Shown piece by piece: positions 3-12,001 of a DNA stretch of 32,673 nucleotides; positions within the stretch are counted from its first letter, which is position 1; every line of letters begins with the position of its first letter. Position numbers and translations under genes: made by a program. The notes under the pieces are model-generated. The model had not been told where the DNA came from. It did no database searches and saw only the letters and a program-made list of their open reading frames with translations. This DNA comes from Candidatus Heimdallarchaeota archaeon. GTDB lineage: Archaea > Asgardarchaeota > Heimdallarchaeia > Heimdallarchaeales > Heimdallarchaeaceae. The stretch spans positions 1-32,673 of the forward strand of contig JAGLRO010000054.1 in NCBI GenBank assembly GCA_023136245.1. Direction: 5' to 3'.

Positions 3-380
3 ATATGGGGTGTTTTATTGCTCTTTGAAGTAACACTATTTGCTTGGATTCAAGTTATCGTTTTTGGTGGTGGTTTAACTTCCCTATTTATAACTGTAGT
101 AGCTTTAACAGAAAGACACAAAGACGAAACATTCAGTTGGAAAAGAACTGTTATTGCTTTCGTAGCTGTTGCTATAATTGTAGGAATTTTCATATGGGTA
201 ATAATTCAGTACGACATTACTTCGATTACCGGAACAATCATTGGTTTTGGTGATTTATGGGACGAAAGAGCAACAGATATAATTCTTCAAGGAATTATCT
301 TCTTTGCAACTACTGTTGGAATAGGTGTTTTGTTCTTCCATCAGAAGAAAAAGAAACTTAAGGAGAAGACAAAAGTATGA
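3..380 (+). CDS. NuoJ/FpoJ-like membrane subunit, partial (open to the window's 5' edge)
   Basis: Frame is open upstream of the TTG start listed in the track (IWGVLLLFEVTLFAWIQVIVFGGGLTSLFITVVALTER); NuoJ-like TM segment; overlaps the start of a NuoK-like gene. Confidence 0.7.
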   Translation: MWGVLLLFEVTLFAWIQVIVFGGGLTSLFITVVALTERHKDETFSWKRTVIAFVAVAIIVGIFIWVIIQYDITSITGTIIGFGDLWDERATDIILQGIIFFATTVGIGVLFFHQKKKKLKEKTKV

Positions 381-697
381 TTGATCAAGTGCATTTACTA
401 ATACTTGCCGTTATTTTATTCGGTGTTGGGTTATTTGCACTTCTCGGAGAGAGTAATATCATCAAGATACTGATGGGTATTGAGATTATGATTATTGCAA
501 TAAACTTAATCTTCATTGCATTAGGAACAGAAATTACAGCTGAAGGAAACAAATTTACTGCTTTAGCACAAGTATTTCCAGTAATTTCATTGGCAATAGG
601 TGCTGCAGTAATGGCTCTCGGTCTTGCAATTGTTATTAACAACTATCGTCATGCAAAAAGTGTGGATAGTGATGAAATGTCTACATTGAAAAGGTGA
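377..697 (+). CDS. nuoK: NuoK/MrpC-like subunit
   Basis: 106 aa, three TM segments, GVGLFALLGESNIIKILMGIEIMIIAINLIFIALG is typical of the NuoK/MnhC family; 4-nt overlaps with both neighbours. Confidence 0.85.
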   Translation: MIDQVHLLILAVILFGVGLFALLGESNIIKILMGIEIMIIAINLIFIALGTEITAEGNKFTALAQVFPVISLAIGAAVMALGLAIVINNYRHAKSVDSDEMSTLKR

Positions 698-2526
698 TGA
701 TGATGATAGAAACACTCTTTCTACTTTCAATAATAACAGTACTGTCACCTTTAGTAGGAGCATTTATTTCACTGTTGCTAAAAAAATGGACGGCAATTCG
801 AGATATATTCAGTGTGTTAACCATTGCAGTATCTGCAGTTACTGCTGTAATAATCTTCATACTTTTCGATGGAGCTCCAAAACCATATGATTTCAACTGG
901 TTGAGTTGGTCAGCAGGTTCTGATCTTGCTAGCACAACTGATCAAGTGATTCAGTCTGGATTTTATCTAGATACATTGTCCGTGCTGATGACACTTATTG
1001 TGACTGTTCTAAGCATGTTAATCGCATTCTTCTCTTTGGAGTATATGGCTGAAGACAAACATCGTTCAAGATATTGGTTCTTTATGCAATTGTTTGTTGG
1101 AGGAATGTTACTTTTAGTTCTTGCACATGATATGATTTTCCTCTTCCTTGGTTGGGAAATCGTAGGACTTTGTTCATTTTTCCTGATAGCTCACCACTAT
1201 ATGAAGAAAGGTGAAGAAGGAAGAAAACCAGCTTTAAGTGGTATCAAAGCACTAATTATGACTGGTATAGGAGATGTTGGATTTCTAGCATTTCTTGCAT
1301 GGGCTTACTTACAAACAAACAGTCTACTTGTTACTGATTTGACTTCAGGTAGTAATGCAGTATTTATGAGCATACTATTGCTTCTAGCACCAGTAACGAA
1401 ATCAGCTCAATTCCCACTTCAGTCATGGTTAAGTTCTGGGGATACAGTCAATATAGACGCAATGCAAGGTCCAACAACCGTTTCTGCACTAATACACGCC
1501 GCTACAATGGTAAAGGCAGGTGTTTATCTAGTTGCTAGAATCAGCCCATTGTGGGGTGAACCTGTATTCTATGTTATACTGATGATACTCGCTGGTATAT
1601 CTACGGTTGGTGCAGCAATTGCAGCATTAGTTACAACGGATTTGAAGCGAGTTTTAGCTTACAGTACAATCTCCCAATTGAGCTATATGTTCTTAGCATT
1701 CACCATCCGTGATGCTGGGGAGCATGGATTATTTGCTGGACAAGCACATTTACTATCACACTCAATTTTCAAAGCTTTACTGTTCTTATCAGCAGGTGCA
1801 ATAATACACTCTATTGCTGAAGAACGAGATATGAAAAAGATGGGTGGAATGAGAAAAGAACTTCCTTGGATTTATGGTTTCATGCTTGTAGGTGTTATAG
1901 GATTAATGGGTATACCAATAATCTCTAACGGTGGATATTCGAAAGAAATGATCATAACTACAGCATTTGAAAACGGTAATTGGTTTGTCTTTGTGGTTGG
2001 AGTTCTTGCAGCTTTCTTAACAGCTCTTTATGCAATCCGAATGTTTTTAATGATTTTCCATGGAAAGAACAGAGGAGCTAATGTACATAAACCAAAATAC
2101 ATAATGAGAATAACTCTAGGTATTCTCGCAGTAATTGTTGTTGCTTCTGGTTTTGTACTTGAAGGACCATTACAAAATAAGCTAACAGGTCATAATGAAG
2201 CATATACACTTTTACATTTCGTACCTCTACCGTTCTTTGTTTCTTTAGGAGCAATTATCTTAGGTATTGGACTTTCATATCTCCTATATGGAAAAGGACA
2301 AACTGAGGTAAGTCTCATTGAGAACAACAATGTGTTAAGATTTTTACGAGACGTTGTAGCACATGGGTTCTACATGGATCATTTATATAATGCAGTTTTC
2401 GTAAAACCAGTTTTCTGGATTGGAAATCAACTGTCCTTCTTAAAGACTGGAAAGATTAACTGGAACATGATACTTGGCTCATTCGTGGCGATAGCAACCA
2501 TTGTTGTTTTGGTGGTGATTGTCTAA
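694..2526 (+). CDS. nuoL: NuoL/MrpA-like proton-translocating antiporter subunit
   Basis: 610 aa multi-TM; FLGWEIVGLCSFFLIAHHY, QFPLQSWLSSGDTVNIDAMQGPTTVSALIHAATMVKAGVYLVAR and DLKRVLAYSTISQLSYMFLAF motifs. Confidence 0.9.
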   Translation: MMMMIETLFLLSIITVLSPLVGAFISLLLKKWTAIRDIFSVLTIAVSAVTAVIIFILFDGAPKPYDFNWLSWSAGSDLASTTDQVIQSGFYLDTLSVLMTLIVTVLSMLIAFFSLEYMAEDKHRSRYWFFMQLFVGGMLLLVLAHDMIFLFLGWEIVGLCSFFLIAHHYMKKGEEGRKPALSGIKALIMTGIGDVGFLAFLAWAYLQTNSLLVTDLTSGSNAVFMSILLLLAPVTKSAQFPLQSWLSSGDTVNIDAMQGPTTVSALIHAATMVKAGVYLVARISPLWGEPVFYVILMILAGISTVGAAIAALVTTDLKRVLAYSTISQLSYMFLAFTIRDAGEHGLFAGQAHLLSHSIFKALLFLSAGAIIHSIAEERDMKKMGGMRKELPWIYGFMLVGVIGLMGIPIISNGGYSKEMIITTAFENGNWFVFVVGVLAAFLTALYAIRMFLMIFHGKNRGANVHKPKYIMRITLGILAVIVVASGFVLEGPLQNKLTGHNEAYTLLHFVPLPFFVSLGAIILGIGLSYLLYGKGQTEVSLIENNNVLRFLRDVVAHGFYMDHLYNAVFVKPVFWIGNQLSFLKTGKINWNMILGSFVAIATIVVLVVIV

Positions 2527-4022
2527 TGATCTTACCTCTAATACTAATAATTCCTTTAGCAGGAGCATTTTTGTTAACACTATTTGAGCAATTAAAGAGA
2601 TACTTAGGAAAGATTAAGATTGATTCTGACGTCCTAAATCATCTGTTTGCTAATATTCTAGCATTAGGTATTTTTATCTTAGCAATCTTATCTTATTCAA
2701 TAGCAGGACTCAAAAACCTAAACACACTTCCTCCAGATAGATTACTAGAATTTGATTTACTTCAAGTAATTCTTATCTCTATATTCGCTTTCTTAGTCTG
2801 GATGGCAGTTTTGTTTAGTATAAACTACATGAAAGACAAAGGAGGGTTAGGGTACTACTACGCACTAATTTTTACATTGTTGAGTGGTTTAAGCACAGTT
2901 GTGATGGCAAACAACTTCTTTACACTATTTGTTGGATGGGAATTGTTTGCTTTAAGCAGTTACGCACTAGTTGCTTTTGATCGTTTAAAACGAGGAGCAG
3001 TAGAAGCTTCACTAAAGTATTTTATAATGTCAACCGCAGGTAGTTCATTTGTACTCTTAGGTATAGCTTTGACTTATGGAATCTTTGGATCTGTAGATTT
3101 TGCTACACTTAGAAATTCCACAGCAATCACAAGTAACCCACTTACTGGCTTTATCATCGCAATCTTTGTGATAGGTTTTGGAGGAACAGCAGCAATGTTG
3201 TTCCTAAATGCTTGGTTACCAGATGCACACTCTCATGCACCATCTACAATCTCTGCGCTATTGTCAGGTATGGTAGTTAAAGCTGGAGCTTATGGTATCT
3301 ACCGAACAGTGTTCTGGGCATTTGGAGGAAGTAATGATATAGTTGCAAGCTCATCAGTCTTTATCTCTTGGCTTGGAATTTTAACTATGTTTGAAGGAAA
3401 CTTACTCGTATTTGCTCAATTCTGGCGAAAGGATATCATAGATTTCAAGAGAATACTTGCATACTCTACAACAGTACATCTTGGTTTCATAGTACTAGGA
3501 ATAGGTGCTGGTACTGAGGTTGGAATTAGTGCTTCGATTTTCCACATACTTACACACTCATTAGGTAAGGGATCCCTCTTTTTGCTCAGTGGTACAATAA
3601 TAGCTGCTATTGGCTCTAGGGATCTTCGTGAAATGAAAGGTATAGGGAGAAGATCACCCTTTATAGGAATTGTTCTAACTATTGGACTTTTATCACTAGG
3701 TGGCATTCCAATCACTGGAGGTTTTGCATCAAAACTTTATGTTATCTTAGCAATCTTTAATGGAAATCATACAGAAATTATGAATATTTTACTTGTAGTT
3801 TTGGCAATCATCAATGCAGTGTTAGCTCTTGGTGGTTATCTTTACATACTCAAATTCATAGTATTTGATGAGCCTGAAGCTAAAGGGGAAGAAAAACTAA
3901 AAATTCCTGTATTTGAAGCAATTGCCTTAATTATAATGGTTCTAGTAATCATTGTATTAGGTGTATGGCCTACTGAAGTATTCAATCAAATTATTCAAGC
4001 TATTGGAAACTTATTTACATAA
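2526..4022 (+). CDS. NuoM/NuoN/MrpD-like antiporter subunit
   Basis: 498 aa multi-TM; FVGWELFALSSYALVAF, AWLPDAHSHAPSTISALLSGMVVKAGAYGIYR, DFKRILAYSTTVHLGFIVLG; start overlaps the NuoL stop. Confidence 0.88.
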   Translation: MILPLILIIPLAGAFLLTLFEQLKRYLGKIKIDSDVLNHLFANILALGIFILAILSYSIAGLKNLNTLPPDRLLEFDLLQVILISIFAFLVWMAVLFSINYMKDKGGLGYYYALIFTLLSGLSTVVMANNFFTLFVGWELFALSSYALVAFDRLKRGAVEASLKYFIMSTAGSSFVLLGIALTYGIFGSVDFATLRNSTAITSNPLTGFIIAIFVIGFGGTAAMLFLNAWLPDAHSHAPSTISALLSGMVVKAGAYGIYRTVFWAFGGSNDIVASSSVFISWLGILTMFEGNLLVFAQFWRKDIIDFKRILAYSTTVHLGFIVLGIGAGTEVGISASIFHILTHSLGKGSLFLLSGTIIAAIGSRDLREMKGIGRRSPFIGIVLTIGLLSLGGIPITGGFASKLYVILAIFNGNHTEIMNILLVVLAIINAVLALGGYLYILKFIVFDEPEAKGEEKLKIPVFEAIALIIMVLVIIVLGVWPTEVFNQIIQAIGNLFT

Positions 4023-4205
4023 TTTTTCCTTTTTTCTTTTTAGTTTCTCCATCTTTTAATGTTCTTTCTTCGTAGTAAAATGCAAAATTATCATAAGGAT
4101 TTACTTTTTCCTTGTTTTTCATCACCAATGTATAGTAATTAGCTCTATCAAGCATTTAGCCTTGCTCTGGTAAAGCTTTTAAAGACCTTAAAATCCTACT
4201 TTACT

Positions 4206-4574
4206 ATGATTTATGAAACTATTAGTGGAGCTTTTTCCCTTTTGGTGGGGATCTCAATCCTCTTATTCTGGTTAGTCCTTATTATTTTAAAGAAATCAAA
4301 CGAATATATTGAAAAACCATTTGAAAGAACATTTCACATTATAGCTGAAATTATAACTGCTTTGTTCGCGATTGTTGGTGGTATTGTGATATTGACTGAA
4401 CAAATCTGGCGATTTCACTATTTCTTTTTTGCTATGGGATTGGTGATTTACGCTATAACAAACGCTATTGGTATTTACGGACAGAAAAAATTCTGGATTC
4501 TAGTTAGCATCTTGATGATAGCCTTAATTACTACTGCTTCAATATTGATAACTACAATTATTAAAATAACTTAA
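4206..4574 (+). CDS. small four-TM membrane protein, unknown
   Basis: 122 aa ORF with about four hydrophobic helices; no family recognised. Confidence 0.5.
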   Translation: MIYETISGAFSLLVGISILLFWLVLIILKKSNEYIEKPFERTFHIIAEIITALFAIVGGIVILTEQIWRFHYFFFAMGLVIYAITNAIGIYGQKKFWILVSILMIALITTASILITTIIKIT

Positions 4575-4625
4575 TCCTAAACAAATATCAGATATAATCG
4601 AAGAAATAGATAAAGAGAAAAAAAA

Positions 4626-5105
4626 TCATTCCGCTGGAATTTCTTTCTTTTCCACTCCAATTAAATCTTGTTTTAATTTTCCAAGCAATGTTACAATAGC
4701 TGCAACTATATTTTCTGGTCGAGGTGGACATCCATAAACCCAAACATCTATAGGTAAAACTGCATCAATTCCGCCCAGAATAAAAGGGGCTTCTTGGAAA
4801 ACTCCACCTGATGAACAACAGTTTCCTACTGCCACAACAAATTTTGGTAAGGGCATCTGTTCATAAACTCTTTTTACTCTTTCAGCTACCTGAATAGTTA
4901 CTGGTCCTGTGATGACTAGAACGTCAGCTTGACGAGGAGTACCTCGTAAGGTAATTCCATATTGTTCTAAATCATGTCGTGGAGTAAGAGTATCAACAAT
5001 TTCGATATCACATCCATTGCATCCACCTGCATTCATATGAATAATCCAAGGAGATCGAACAGCGCAATTAACTCCAAATCTCTTTAACCAACCCATCATT
5101 CTCAA
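4626..5105 (-). CDS. group-4 hydrogenase small subunit / NuoB-like
   Basis: MNAGGCNGCDIEI, VVAVGNCCSSGG and VYGCPPRPENI cysteine motifs for the proximal [4Fe-4S] cluster. Confidence 0.92.
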   Translation of the reverse strand: MRMMGWLKRFGVNCAVRSPWIIHMNAGGCNGCDIEIVDTLTPRHDLEQYGITLRGTPRQADVLVITGPVTIQVAERVKRVYEQMPLPKFVVAVGNCCSSGGVFQEAPFILGGIDAVLPIDVWVYGCPPRPENIVAAIVTLLGKLKQDLIGVEKKEIPAE

Positions 5106-5569
5106 CCCCTTAACTCCTCAAATTGCTTCATAATTCTTCCGCCTTCTTCGATTAATTCTTCTAGTTTCTTATCAGTCATTTCTCCTTTGTAACTACCTTT
5201 AGCACAAATCATTTCATAGTCTTGTCTATTATTAAATGAGAATAGAGAATTGGATAATGCTGGTTCTCTATCTATATGAATTGCATCTTTAGGACAATAA
5301 GTTTGACAGTGACCACACCACATACACTGAGCTCTCTGTAACCAGATCATACCATTATCCTTGTTATCCTTCTCCATTCCTAGACAATGTGTAGGACAAA
5401 CTTTTACGCAAGTTCCACACATAATGCAACTCTCTTTAACTATCCTAGGAATAGTTCTGATATCTTCTGGAGGAGGGTGTTTTTCTATTCTTTCAAGAAC
5501 ATGGAGAGTTACTGGTCCTTTAATATGATTTTTTATCGCTTCTCTGCCCATAACAAGTATTTTCTTCAT
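5102..5569 (-). CDS. NuoI-like 2x[4Fe-4S] ferredoxin subunit
   Basis: CIMCGTCVKVCP and CMWCGHCQTYCP; overlaps the NuoB-like start. Confidence 0.88.
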   Translation of the reverse strand: MKKILVMGREAIKNHIKGPVTLHVLERIEKHPPPEDIRTIPRIVKESCIMCGTCVKVCPTHCLGMEKDNKDNGMIWLQRAQCMWCGHCQTYCPKDAIHIDREPALSNSLFSFNNRQDYEMICAKGSYKGEMTDKKLEELIEEGGRIMKQFEELRG

Positions 5570-5581
5570 ATTTTTTTCACC

Positions 5582-6835
5582 TCAGAGAAATGGCCTATTG
5601 TATTTTTTAGCTTTGATTGCCTTTCTTGCAAATTCATCTTGATTTATTATCAGTTTTTCACCTGTCTTATCGTTGATAATCATCACTCTATTAGTACAGG
5701 AGAAACACGGATCATAACTTCGTAATATTACTGGTATATCTGCAATGTATTCCCCATCCATCCTTTTTAGTGTAGCGTCAATGTTTCCTAATGAAGGTGC
5801 TCTAATTTTGTATCTTTCAGGTTTATCAGTGCCATTAGCAATTCCGTAATGAAGGTCTTCCCCTCTAGGTGCCTCAGCACGGGTCATGTATTTACCTTCA
5901 GCAATTCTTGGTTTAACCCTAACAAGTAGCTCTCCTTGAGTTGTTTCAAGTTGATCTAGTATTTGTATCAGCATTTGAAGTGATTCGAGGGTTTCATCAA
6001 TTCTAACTAAAGTAGTTGCAAGAATATCTCCTTCATTGTAATAAACAAGATTCCAGTCAATTTTATCATACAATTCGTAAGGATAAGATTTTCTAATATC
6101 AAAGGGTAATCCAGATCCTCTACCAGTTGGTCCATTTGGAGTTGTTTTCTTAGCATCTTCTTTAGTAAGAACACCAACATTTTCCAATCTATTTCTTATT
6201 GATATTTCCTCTGTGAAAACTTTTTTGTGATATTCCACTTTTTTAATAAGTTCATCAATAAGTGGTCTTGCTCTATCTCCCTTTTCTTTTGGAATGTCTC
6301 TTTTCACCCCGCCAGGAAGCATTAAAGCAGGATTAACTCTATTACCGCTTATATCTTCAACTATGTCCATTATCATCTCACGATCTCTCCACGAAATGTG
6401 AAGCATTGTATCGAAACCTGTATCATGAGCAAGAATCCCATACCAGAGAATATGAGAATGAACACGTTCAGCTTCTAAACTAAACATACGTATTAGCTTT
6501 GCTCTTTCAGAAATTTGGTCTTCAACTCCTGCTAGTCTCTCAACTACACGAACATAGACGTTTTGATGAACAGCGCTACAGATACCACAAGCTCTTGGAA
6601 TTAACATGGTATTTTGTCGCCATGTTTTTGCTTCCATTGCTTTTTCTAAACCTCGAAGGTTATAACCTATACGAATGTCTGCTTCTACGACCCTTTCCCC
6701 TTTCACATGAATGATGAAATGTGCTGGTTCTTCAGCCCAAGGATGTTGAGGTCCAATGAAGATGTGATGTTCTGCATTAGGTGGTGCGTCACTCCCATCT
6801 ACTAAAGTTCTGAATCTTGATCTAAATTCTGTCAT
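5582..6835 (-). CDS. group-4 [NiFe]-hydrogenase large subunit / NuoD-like
   Basis: GPQHPW N-terminus; CGICSAVH (L1) and DPCFSC (L2) Ni-binding motifs both present. Confidence 0.93.
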   Translation of the reverse strand: MTEFRSRFRTLVDGSDAPPNAEHHIFIGPQHPWAEEPAHFIIHVKGERVVEADIRIGYNLRGLEKAMEAKTWRQNTMLIPRACGICSAVHQNVYVRVVERLAGVEDQISERAKLIRMFSLEAERVHSHILWYGILAHDTGFDTMLHISWRDREMIMDIVEDISGNRVNPALMLPGGVKRDIPKEKGDRARPLIDELIKKVEYHKKVFTEEISIRNRLENVGVLTKEDAKKTTPNGPTGRGSGLPFDIRKSYPYELYDKIDWNLVYYNEGDILATTLVRIDETLESLQMLIQILDQLETTQGELLVRVKPRIAEGKYMTRAEAPRGEDLHYGIANGTDKPERYKIRAPSLGNIDATLKRMDGEYIADIPVILRSYDPCFSCTNRVMIINDKTGEKLIINQDEFARKAIKAKKYNRPFL

Positions 6836-6837
6836 TT

Positions 6838-7359
6838 CTAATCATCCTCCGAAATCTGTCTAGCCATATTCAATGTGATTTCCTTTAGTTGTTCCCAAGA
6901 GTATTCTTTTCTCATTGGTCTAACATCATCTGGCCATTTTTCAGGCAGAATTAGTCTTTGTAAGAATGGGTGATTTTCGAAGTAAATACCAAAGAAATCA
7001 TAGATCTCTCGTTCATAATAATCTGCTGAAACATACAAGTCTACCATACTTGGAGTTTTAGGATTCCCTTTGTCGATTTTTGTTACTATAAAATTGATAG
7101 GTACTTCTCTAAATTCTTCCTCAATTCTATGTTGTAAATGATAACAAACTTGAAATTCCTTTTTTCTTTCTATTCCTGTAATTGTAGACAAATGATAAAT
7201 TCCAGCATCCCCGTGAAGAATTTTCATTAAGTCGTAAGCAGTATTTATAGCAGTAAGAACATCGAAATGCCCTTCTTCAACTTTAATGACTTCCTCTACG
7301 AGATTTTCAGGTAAACTTATTTTTAAAATCTCTTCTAATTCTTTGTGTGCATCACTCAT
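6838..7359 (-). CDS. NuoC / 30-kDa-like subunit
   Basis: YYEREIYDFFGIYFENHPFLQRLILPEKWPDDVRPMRKEY is the NuoC signature; adjacent to the NuoD-like gene. Confidence 0.9.
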   Translation of the reverse strand: MSDAHKELEEILKISLPENLVEEVIKVEEGHFDVLTAINTAYDLMKILHGDAGIYHLSTITGIERKKEFQVCYHLQHRIEEEFREVPINFIVTKIDKGNPKTPSMVDLYVSADYYEREIYDFFGIYFENHPFLQRLILPEKWPDDVRPMRKEYSWEQLKEITLNMARQISEDD

Positions 7360-7458: not shown

Positions 7459-8142
7459 TTATTTTTTGATAAAAACATAATCGCTTCCTTTGAATTTCTC
7501 TGGTATTTCCTGAAAGTACCACCCTCTCGCTTGCAGAACTAAGAGGTTTGCCAACATCCATGGCTTAATATTATTGTTATCACAACGCAAGATTTCCTCT
7601 GATATCCATTCGCCTTCATCTTCCTTAATCTGGATCCACTCATTTATAGATAGATATTTTCCAGTGTAAAGTAAACCATAAACTTTTTCCAATAATTCAG
7701 GGATTGATCGAACAATTGTAGTGAGTAATTCATCACTGTCTTTTTCTTGACATTCCAGAATTGCATCTAGAACAGCTGTTTTGGTTTCGAAATTATCAGA
7801 TAATTTTGGTCTTAATGGTGGAAGTCTTTCAAAGTCAGGAAATATGGCTTTTTCTTCACATAAGAAAACTCTTTCTGTGACAACTCTAAATCTATAACCT
7901 CTAGTTGTCAAAATAAGTATGTAAGCTATTTCAAGATTACTTAGTCTATAGTTACGTAGTAATAATTCAACTCCCTCTCGTGCTGAAATTTTTCGTAACG
8001 CTTCTCCTGAACATTCAATCTGATCTAACGCATCAGAAATAACTTGAGATAAGTTAGTAAGGAAGAATTGATTTGATTTGGTTGAAAAATCTATGAAGTT
8101 TCTAAGGATTTGGGCATTTGCGTCTTTTTCTCTAAGTACCAT
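7459..8142 (-). CDS. uncharacterised 227 aa protein
   Basis: Long ORF between NuoC and HypC on the same strand; no recognised motif. Confidence 0.6.
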   Translation of the reverse strand: MVLREKDANAQILRNFIDFSTKSNQFFLTNLSQVISDALDQIECSGEALRKISAREGVELLLRNYRLSNLEIAYILILTTRGYRFRVVTERVFLCEEKAIFPDFERLPPLRPKLSDNFETKTAVLDAILECQEKDSDELLTTIVRSIPELLEKVYGLLYTGKYLSINEWIQIKEDEGEWISEEILRCDNNNIKPWMLANLLVLQARGWYFQEIPEKFKGSDYVFIKK

Positions 8143-8491: not shown

Positions 8492-9604
8492 TTAATCTTC
8501 CCACTGTATTTCCTCGTAAGTTGCTGCAACATTACAAGTTCCTTCATGACTGACCATACATGCCCCAACCGGATGATCAGGTCTGCATGCTTTCATGAAT
8601 AGTTGACATTCATTGGGTTTGGTTTTACCAATGAGAATTTCATCACAAATACAACCTGAATGAAGTTCTTTAAATTCCAATTCGGGGATATCATATTTCT
8701 TTTTAGCATCAATGTGAGAGTATTTGTCACTTATTTCGTGACCTGTAGCAGGCCAAACGCCTAAACCTCTCCATCGAGCTTCAGAAATTACATAGGCATC
8801 ATCTATTGTGCGTAAAGCTGCTGTATTTCCTTCAGGTTTGACCCATCTACCATAGGTATTGTCAACACGAGGAGAATTTGCATTTATCTGGAGAATAAGC
8901 GAATGGATACCCATGAGAATATCAACAGGTTCAAAACCGGAAATAGCAACTGGAAAGTTATATTTCTCAGGAATGAACTCATAAGGTTTAGAACCGATGA
9001 TAGTGGAAACATGACCTGGAGCTAGGAAACCTTGAAATTCAAGATCATCTCGTTGAACTAATAATTCCATAGCAGGAGGAATGACCTTGTGAGAAGAATA
9101 GATACTAAAATTAGGAAGGGTAGTGCGAACGACTTCAGCAGCAGTAACACAAGAAGTGGTTTCAAAACCAACACTAAAGAAGATAACATCTTTTTCAGGA
9201 GAGTTCTCAGCAATTGTAATAGCATCAGAAACACCATAAACAATACGAACGTCAATACCTCGACCTTGAGCTTGATAAAGAGACTCAGAAGAACCGGGGA
9301 CTCGCATCATGTCACCAAAAGTAGTAATAGTAGTATTATGATTATCAGCTATCCAAAGAACCTCATCGACATCTTGAGCACTTGAGACACAAACAGGACA
9401 TCCAGGGCCTGCAATCAATTCTATATTTTTTGGTAAGAGTGATCTCAATCCTGCTTTTACTAAATCATGTTCATGTGTCCCACATACATGCATTATTCTA
9501 ATTTTTTCTTCTGTTTTTTCGCTCTCTTCCTTTATTTTTTTTATCAGAGAATCTACTATTTTTTTATTTCTGTATACTTTTGTTGGTTCTGCCATTATGT
9601 TCAA
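8492..9604 (-). CDS. hypD: hydrogenase maturation protein HypD
   Basis: RIMHVCGTHEHDLVKAGLRSLLP, AGPGCPVCV, C-terminal Cys-rich GCICDEIL...ACMVSHEGTC. Confidence 0.95.
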   Translation of the reverse strand: MNIMAEPTKVYRNKKIVDSLIKKIKEESEKTEEKIRIMHVCGTHEHDLVKAGLRSLLPKNIELIAGPGCPVCVSSAQDVDEVLWIADNHNTTITTFGDMMRVPGSSESLYQAQGRGIDVRIVYGVSDAITIAENSPEKDVIFFSVGFETTSCVTAAEVVRTTLPNFSIYSSHKVIPPAMELLVQRDDLEFQGFLAPGHVSTIIGSKPYEFIPEKYNFPVAISGFEPVDILMGIHSLILQINANSPRVDNTYGRWVKPEGNTAALRTIDDAYVISEARWRGLGVWPATGHEISDKYSHIDAKKKYDIPELEFKELHSGCICDEILIGKTKPNECQLFMKACRPDHPVGACMVSHEGTCNVAATYEEIQWED

Positions 9605-10359: not shown

Positions 10360-11391
10360 TTATTTCTGAAATTCTTCTGGTATACATACAGCAAACTTAC
10401 ATTCTAACTTTCCAGTTAATGGCGTTTCAATCGGTTCAACTTTGACTGATTGATCGAAAATTATATCCCAATACTGCTTGAAAAAGCCTGCACTACAATT
10501 ACAGAAATTATGTGATATCTCTTTTTCTTCACCCTTTTTTATTGCTCCCCGCACCCAAGCACAATAACAAGCATAATATCTCTTCATTCTTTCATCTTCT
10601 GTATTAAGAAATTTTATGATTTGATAAGGGATTTTTGTAACAATTATCTTGTCCCCTTCTCTTATTCCCGGTGTTATTGTTGGTGAGTTTTTCACATATT
10701 CTATAGCTCCTTGATTTATGTATTGGGCATACTCAAGAGTGCCTTCCTTACTGTGTTTTTCAAGTCTCTCAACAAATTCTTTCTTCTTGATTTTTAGAAA
10801 TTCATCAATATCCTTTATTTTTAGAAAATCTTCTCTATCTTTCTTTATTGGTTCAAGTGGTCGACCATGTAAGCATGGAGATAATATCTCAATGGTTTTT
10901 TCTTCCCCTATTTTTTCTTCCATTCTTTTCATTATCTCTTTGGTAAAGGTTGGTTTCTTATCAGGATGTACGCCTAAGGGTGGAATTGTAAGTTCATTAA
11001 AAATCTCATCTCTTGTTTCTTCATCAATTTGCTCTGCAATTCTTGTATAGAGATTGTCCATAGCATTATAACCTTCGACAATATCTATGATTTTAATAGT
11101 GTAATCATAATTTTCTGTGAAATTTGCATAATTAATTAGCGCTCTTAGTACATCAAGAACTTTGTCTTCACCTTTGTTAACCAAATATTCAGTATATTCA
11201 ACAATTTTTCCTTCAGGAATCGAGTTGATATTTATTTCTTCTCTATTAAGAAATTCTTGAAAATCATTTAATCTTTTGATATAAACTGATATTTGTTCTT
11301 CCTCGATGTTGTTTTTCGATAAATACTCCCTAAAACTTTCTTCATTCATAATAATGCTCTCTTGGTTTTCTCTTATAGATCTCTTAACCAA
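10360..11391 (-). CDS. uncharacterised two-part protein with Cys-rich C-terminus
   Basis: 343 aa; helical N-terminus resembling a SAM-like/core-binding fold (LSKNNIEEEQISVYIKRLNDFQEFL); C-terminal YYACYCAWVRG...HNFCNCSAGFFKQYWDIIF...LECKFAVCIP. Confidence 0.6.
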   Translation of the reverse strand: MVKRSIRENQESIIMNEESFREYLSKNNIEEEQISVYIKRLNDFQEFLNREEININSIPEGKIVEYTEYLVNKGEDKVLDVLRALINYANFTENYDYTIKIIDIVEGYNAMDNLYTRIAEQIDEETRDEIFNELTIPPLGVHPDKKPTFTKEIMKRMEEKIGEEKTIEILSPCLHGRPLEPIKKDREDFLKIKDIDEFLKIKKKEFVERLEKHSKEGTLEYAQYINQGAIEYVKNSPTITPGIREGDKIIVTKIPYQIIKFLNTEDERMKRYYACYCAWVRGAIKKGEEKEISHNFCNCSAGFFKQYWDIIFDQSVKVEPIETPLTGKLECKFAVCIPEEFQK

Positions 11392-11470: not shown

Positions 11471-12001
11471 TCATTTTCGTATAGAATGAATTCTTTCAGT
11501 AAGTAGTTCTGCAAGTTCTTCTGCTGCTTCTTTACATTCCTTTGATAAAGGTGCTTCAAAATAAATTTGTTTTGGTTGGATTCCTACATACATAGTTTTT
11601 AAATCAGGGATTTCTGGCTTTAGAAACTCTTCTAACATAGTTAAAGATAAAGTATGTGTCGAAAAATGAAATCCCTGCGAGATAGCTTCTTTGGAAAAGA
11701 TTGCTATTGCCCCTGGTATTTCTTTCATATCTGCAGCATCTAAAAGGATTATTCTATTTGGACCTAATTTTCTTATTTTTCCCAGAAAATGCTCAGGTAC
11801 TCTTTCGCAATAGAAATTTGTTACCCAATCAGGGAGTGATTCTTCTTGTAGTATCTTTAGAACATACAATCCTACAGCATCATCTCCATTATCTTCATTT
11901 CCAATTCCAAGAATCGCCAATTTCTTTATTCCAACCAAAAAATCATCAATTGCTTGAACGAATTCAGGAGTGAATTGATTTTTCTTTGCTGCATCTGACA
12001 T
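11471..12001 (-). CDS. hycI: hydrogenase maturation protease (HycI/HyaD type)
   Basis: LAILGIGNEDNGDDAVGLYVL, RIILLDAADM, HTLSLTMLEEFL. Confidence 0.88.
   Translation of the reverse strand: MSDAAKKNQFTPEFVQAIDDFLVGIKKLAILGIGNEDNGDDAVGLYVLKILQEESLPDWVTNFYCERVPEHFLGKIRKLGPNRIILLDAADMKEIPGAIAIFSKEAISQGFHFSTHTLSLTMLEEFLKPEIPDLKTMYVGIQPKQIYFEAPLSKECKEAAEELAELLTERIHSIRK

Follow-up and report, generated by a model that had tools for sequence, protein, structure and literature searches.

The 32,673-nucleotide window analysed here is the whole of contig JAGLRO010000054.1 (C215) of a Candidatus Heimdallarchaeota genome (GCA_023136245.1; G000), and it carries two blocks of genes on opposite strands that very probably encode, in a Heimdallarchaeota-type Asgard archaeon, a group-4 [NiFe]-hydrogenase that is membrane-bound and complex-I-like and belongs to the kind already published as Hfo and as the Asgard complex-I-like hydrogenase. 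The sequences show a peripheral arm, B-C-D-I, in which the Ni-Fe site is complete, and a membrane arm, H-(A)-J-K-N-L, which includes two antiporter-like subunits (subunits are designated by the letters of their Nuo counterparts). The host group comprises the archaea closest to eukaryotes, and the enzyme resembles the first enzyme of the respiratory chain almost exactly in its construction. Window proteins were assigned to families by Pfam profile searches, and comparisons were made with 24 genomes of the window family (f1; genomes are given G numbers and loci L numbers) and with other families (f3-f7). A first-pass annotation, made from the letters alone, had described J-, K-, L- and M/N-like genes on the + strand facing C-, D-, I- and B-like genes on the - strand; all eight are present where it had placed them, each with a significant family match (table 1).

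The assignment as a hydrogenase is carried by the large subunit, D, which contains the motifs CGICSAVH and DPCFSC. The Ni-Fe ligands C83, C86, C377 and C380 align with the corresponding cysteines of MbhL, HycE and HyfG, which are found in all hydrogenase rows of the comparison and in none of the Nuo/Fpo rows. The best solved relatives of D are MbhL (the top PDB match) and HycE. In the structure, MbhL stops at the very arginine that follows the last cysteine, whereas D runs 34 residues past R383, as expected of an unprocessed precursor; this C-terminal tail is predicted to be cleavable, and a maturation set accompanies it, with HypC, HypD and a HycI-type protease in the window and HypF on another contig of the same genome (C112). 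In the phylogenetic tree of D, the window protein belongs to a clade with f4, f5 and a Borrarchaeum hydrogenase (support 98/98, and 100/99 when the tree is rooted on two group-3 sequences). A well-supported branch (99/96 to 100/100) sets all Ni-less complex-I-type rows apart, and window D lies among the hydrogenases. In the rooted tree, the root of which is set by two distant outgroup rows only, the Ni-less complex-I clade (100/100) is nested inside the hydrogenases, where its neighbours are Bathyarchaeum tardum and a Thermoprotei sequence (99/90). Window D is 86-90% identical to D of metagenome-assembled genomes labelled Candidatus Heimdallarchaeota or Asgard group archaeon.

A true complex I, or an Fpo-like quinone oxidoreductase in which the cysteine motif is a vestige, would account for the higher scores of D with NuoD/FpoD profiles than with hydrogenase profiles and for a subunit set like that of Fpo. 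It is, however, extremely unlikely, and was rejected on the Ni-Fe cysteines and the tree: the four cysteines are kept by every aligned hydrogenase D of the family, the maturation tail and the protease are both present, B has the hydrogenase-type CxxC, and D stands outside the Ni-less clade. The first-pass annotation, which had taken D for a hydrogenase rather than a complex I subunit on the strength of the two motifs and had proposed a large-subunit phylogeny as a check, is upheld by the cysteines, the tail and the position of D outside Nuo/Fpo.

The two facing blocks are predicted to encode one complex, because the trees place D, H and the antiporters with the Heimdallarchaeia hydrogenases and because NuoH is single. 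In the H tree, the window family is found with the hydrogenase-linked subunits of f4/f5 (support 98/94), and in the L and N trees it joins the f4/f5 hydrogenase subunits, with f3 also included in the L tree. Exactly one NuoH match is present in each of the 13 family genomes checked, and in complete loci the strong antiporter matches are one L and one N, with weaker Mrp-like matches elsewhere. The joining of a full-length NuoL-like subunit and a second antiporter to a Ni site, as suggested in the first-pass annotation, agrees with these results.

The same annotation had named the contrary case, in which the + strand genes are all or part of an independent Mrp-type antiporter, or of some other complex, and the hydrogenase has its membrane arm elsewhere. 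Such a separation would suit the placement of the blocks on opposite strands, the distance of roughly 17-20 kb between them in four family genomes (G005, G007, G009 and G012) and the occurrence of Mrp-like antiporter genes elsewhere in some family genomes (G021:C48). Yet each family genome searched has a single NuoH, the H, L and N trees agree with the D tree, and H, which opens the + strand block in relatives, is the subunit on which B and D dock and is absent from Mrp. Instead of an MrpA-G cluster without NuoH, relatives have a block of H, J, K, L and N, and the nearest kin of H, L and N are hydrogenase subunits of sister families. A separate Mrp origin of the + strand genes, discarded on the trees and the NuoH counts, can therefore be regarded as largely refuted and very unlikely.

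NuoH itself, it had been suggested, may lie to the left of the window, and the only match in the source genome is a 149-residue piece that runs off the end of contig C112, adjoining a complete HypF. The start of C215 falls inside J, so that the 5' end of this gene is missing (full-length J has 167-171 residues in relatives). In G001 and G003 one contig carries HypF-H-A-J-K-L-N-X122 facing B-I-D-C-U227-HypD; the order in G023 is the same through N, with a HycI gene standing before B, and X122 and U227 were not found in the G023 locus. From these single-contig loci we infer that the window forms the right-hand portion of a single locus, in which the gap between C112 and C215 should be about 1.1 kb.

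The first-pass annotation had also proposed looking leftwards for NuoA, and a NuoA-like gene is found between H and J in relatives only. There, the intervening open reading frame codes for 130-136 residues and matches NuoA/ND3 (PF00507) above the curated cut-off. A profile built from 20 hydrogenase-linked proteins of this type matches NuoA/ND3 chains of the PDB (best 1e-10), and in the same search MbhI was not matched. With this profile, which was built partly from loci later scanned, a NuoA-like gene was detected within 4 kb of D and on the same strand in 63 of 72 related group-4 loci; five of the nine loci without a match have little upstream sequence, and the match in Alkanophaga is weak and lies within a larger open reading frame. 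All nine other Heimdallarchaeia hydrogenase loci have the gene. The predicted structure of the f1 protein (three long helices, predicted template modelling score 0.43, no PDB match) is uninformative, and the sequence profile is the better evidence. One paper reports NuoA to be without relatives (PMC13399641). The presence of NuoA in a hydrogenase was dropped as a new finding, an 11-subunit Fpo/Nuo-like hydrogenase having already been described (PMC7886697).

As to the antiporters, quick trees place L in the NuoL clade and group the second subunit with E. coli NuoN, away from NuoM. Its initial description as 'M/N-like' thus stands as far as an antiporter subunit is concerned, and is narrowed by the tree to the NuoN type. 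The antiporter search and the tree gave only L and N and no NuoM-type subunit; NuoM would therefore be the part lacking in the two-antiporter complex. L retains the channel residues E144, D178, K229, H254, H338, K342 and K399 (E. coli numbering). In complex I the segment of L between transmembrane helices (TM) 15 and 16 forms the lateral helix. This segment has 44-52 residues in two-antiporter loci versus 74-162 in three-antiporter loci, so that its length tracks the number of antiporters; the exceptions are doubtful, namely an Alkanophaga locus (L052; 78 residues, two antiporters detected, one frame cut short) and one row belonging to a protein other than L. The lateral helix of window L is accordingly short by sequence, like that of other two-antiporter complexes, and an AlphaFold model of L has a good core and a lateral helix of low confidence. 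The TM7 lysine, thought to be essential in complex I, is replaced by Thr in N of f1, f3, f4 and f5, the rest of the N clade having mostly Lys; K retains the transmembrane Glu36 and has Val in place of Glu72.

By analogy with complex I and Mbh, from which the mechanism is taken, while ferredoxin coupling and ion pumping are drawn from knowledge of the family, electrons from reduced ferredoxin (or flavodoxin) would enter via I and be passed on by B to the Ni-Fe centre in D, the site at which protons would be reduced to H2. Ion transport, by way of H, the small subunits and L, would be driven by the redox step at the D-B-H interface, and the role of N may be modified because its TM7 lysine is lost. 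The reverse reaction, in which the membrane potential is used to reduce ferredoxin with H2, may also take place. Several points weigh against assigning such an enzyme to the window: the electron donor, the ion and the direction of the reaction are deduced from relatives; the loss of the N TM7 lysine and of K Glu72 may mean a low pumping stoichiometry; the joining of C112 to C215 is likewise taken from relatives; the NuoA-like gene was not found in the source genome, where its place falls in the assembly gap; and as of 2021 there was no biochemistry for any enzyme of subgroup 4g (PMC7886697).

A further reading keeps the hydrogenase and lets one f1 membrane arm serve two exchangeable peripheral arms, one being the B-C-D-I of the hydrogenase and the other a Ni-less B-C-D-I encoded elsewhere. 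It would cover the ten family genomes with both arms, and not demonstrably that of the window, and it is very improbable. Ten of the 24 family genomes do carry a further, Ni-less-type D, which at the five loci inspected is part of a B-C-D-I cluster whose flanks, as far as they were read, contain no membrane genes, and which in the five cases checked is without all four Ni-Fe cysteines; the single NuoH of the genomes searched and the physical separation of the membrane operon from the hydrogenase operon would also be in keeping with a shared arm. Nevertheless, more than half of the family genomes (incomplete as they are), including that of the window, show no second B-C-D-I, and the Ni-less arm may be soluble. 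B of the Ni-less clusters is NuoB-like by profile. In f6 (L069:8609-10624) a 671-residue fusion of NuoI-, NuoB- and NuoD-like parts, related to the Ni-less form, stands beside a NuoC-like gene, and a 669-residue frame of Borrarchaeum groups with it.

The facing arrangement of the hydrogenase genes, the ends of which are separated by 51 bp in the window (X122 at 4574, B, the last gene of the - strand operon, at 4626), was only in part recovered in relatives. Convergent neighbouring blocks are present in seven family genomes (G000, G001, G003, G006, G013, G019 and G023) and are confined to f1, where at least five other genomes are arranged differently: the four with distant blocks have them on the same strand, G021 has the membrane block upstream on the same strand, and in others the blocks are on different contigs. 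In f3-f7 the inspected genes share one strand, their order being close to that of complex I, and the antiporter block of other phyla is often apart from A-B-C-D-H-I (on the opposite strand in L091); the peculiarity of f1 is the company of H and A in the antiporter block. The idea that convergent synteny is a conserved functional trait was accordingly rejected: the layout, broken up even within the genus, is a lineage-specific rearrangement without apparent functional meaning, and no functional message was found in the split gene order.

The kind of enzyme is already published, and the window system belongs with Hfo and the Asgard complex-I-like hydrogenases. Hfo was described by Loh et al. (2021) as an 11-subunit, Fpo-like energy-converting hydrogenase of subgroup 4g and called the closer link to complex I (PMC7886697); it shares with the window system complex-I-like subunits, a complete Ni-Fe site, a proposed ferredoxin/H2 coupling (PMC7886697) and a cluster without an NADH or F420H2 input module. 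In contrast to Hfo, the window complex has two antiporters (L and N) instead of three and so falls short of eleven subunits, its genes are divided between two facing blocks, H and A having passed to that of the membrane arm, rather than forming a single nuoA-N-like operon, and its large subunit belongs to another clade. The complex-I-like group-4 hydrogenase of Freyarchaeia and Atabeyarchaeia, in which Valentin-Alvarado et al. (2024) describe two antiporters as well as a lateral helix and which their tree relates to Heimdallarchaeia hydrogenases (PMC11291895), is alike in its published description as to the group-4 Ni-Fe site, the two antiporters and the L subunit with lateral helix, but its genes are reported as one syntenic block with Hdr, ATP synthase and a group 3 hydrogenase; neither NuoA nor NuoN is mentioned in the main text of that paper (PMC11291895). 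Mbh of Pyrococcus furiosus (group 4d) has the same catalytic core but a Mrp-like Na+ module, with MbhI in the place of NuoA at the arm junction (PMC7684303), whereas in the window complex L is of the NuoL type and the second antiporter of the NuoN type, and relatives also have a NuoA-like subunit. Finally, 10 of the 11 core subunits of complex I/Fpo have counterparts in the window or its close relatives; complex I is without the Ni-Fe cysteines and the window locus without NuoM, and neither NuoEFG nor FpoF was found next to the window locus. To the series that connects hydrogenases with complex I, the window system contributes a hydrogenase of a Heimdallarchaeota-type lineage that has two antiporters and, in close relatives, NuoA. 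An Hfo-like cluster was also reported in 2023 for B. tardum, with NuoJ given as missing (PMC10477458); its locus (L142:2132-11889) has the canonical order A-B-CD-H-I-J-K-L-M-N and the Ni-Fe cysteines, and a J-like open reading frame was matched at 5972-6436 in spite of that report.

Table 1. Genes of the two blocks and the maturation genes in the window, with the Ni-less clusters of other loci.
Feature	Position	Strand	Basis
NuoJ-like membrane subunit, 5'-truncated at contig start	3..380	+	Pfam Oxidored_q3 7.1e-8
NuoK-like subunit	377..697	+	Pfam Oxidored_q2 5.3e-20
NuoL-like distal antiporter subunit, short lateral helix (predicted)	694..2526	+	family match 8e-59, tree, residues
NuoN-type antiporter subunit, TM7 lysine replaced by Thr	2526..4022	+	Pfam Proton_antipo_M 9e-60, tree, residues
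X122, membrane protein of 122 residues, no known family; closes the membrane-arm operon	4206..4574	+	
NuoB/small hydrogenase subunit, CxxC...C...C pattern (GGCNGCD, GNCCSS, YGCPP)	4626..5105	-	Pfam Oxidored_q6 1.9e-31
NuoI-like subunit, two 4Fe-4S motifs	5102..5569	-	4Fe-4S domain matches
D, NuoD-like [NiFe]-hydrogenase large subunit	5582..6835	-	49 kDa family 8e-60; NiFeSe_Hases 1e-11
NuoC-like subunit	6838..7359	-	Pfam Complex1_30kDa 5e-28
U227, 227-residue protein of no known family	7459..8142	-	
HypC-like maturation chaperone, 78 residues	8219..8455	-	assigned by reading the sequence (MCLAIP start)
HypD maturation protein	8492..9604	-	Pfam HypD 1.5e-137
HycI-type hydrogenase maturation protease	11471..12001	-	Pfam HycI 6.5e-12
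Ni-less NuoB-C-D-I clusters, Heimdallarchaeota-type genomes	L049:8038-10550, L050:8522-10992, L066:8056-10541, L067:9371-11853, L068:9427-11912		

Two proteins of no known family accompany the hydrogenase genes. Several family members retain X122 as the terminal gene of the membrane operon, and it adjoins N also in a differently arranged relative (L070); U227 adjoins C in nearly all family members. The - strand operon is transcribed in the order HypD, HypC, U227, C, D, I, B, with the HycI-type protease farther upstream. A 343-residue protein with a Cys-rich C-terminal part (window 10360-11391), for which Pfam gave no convincing match, is encoded near HypD/HycI in relatives as well, and a flavodoxin gene lies on the + strand between HycI and HypD.

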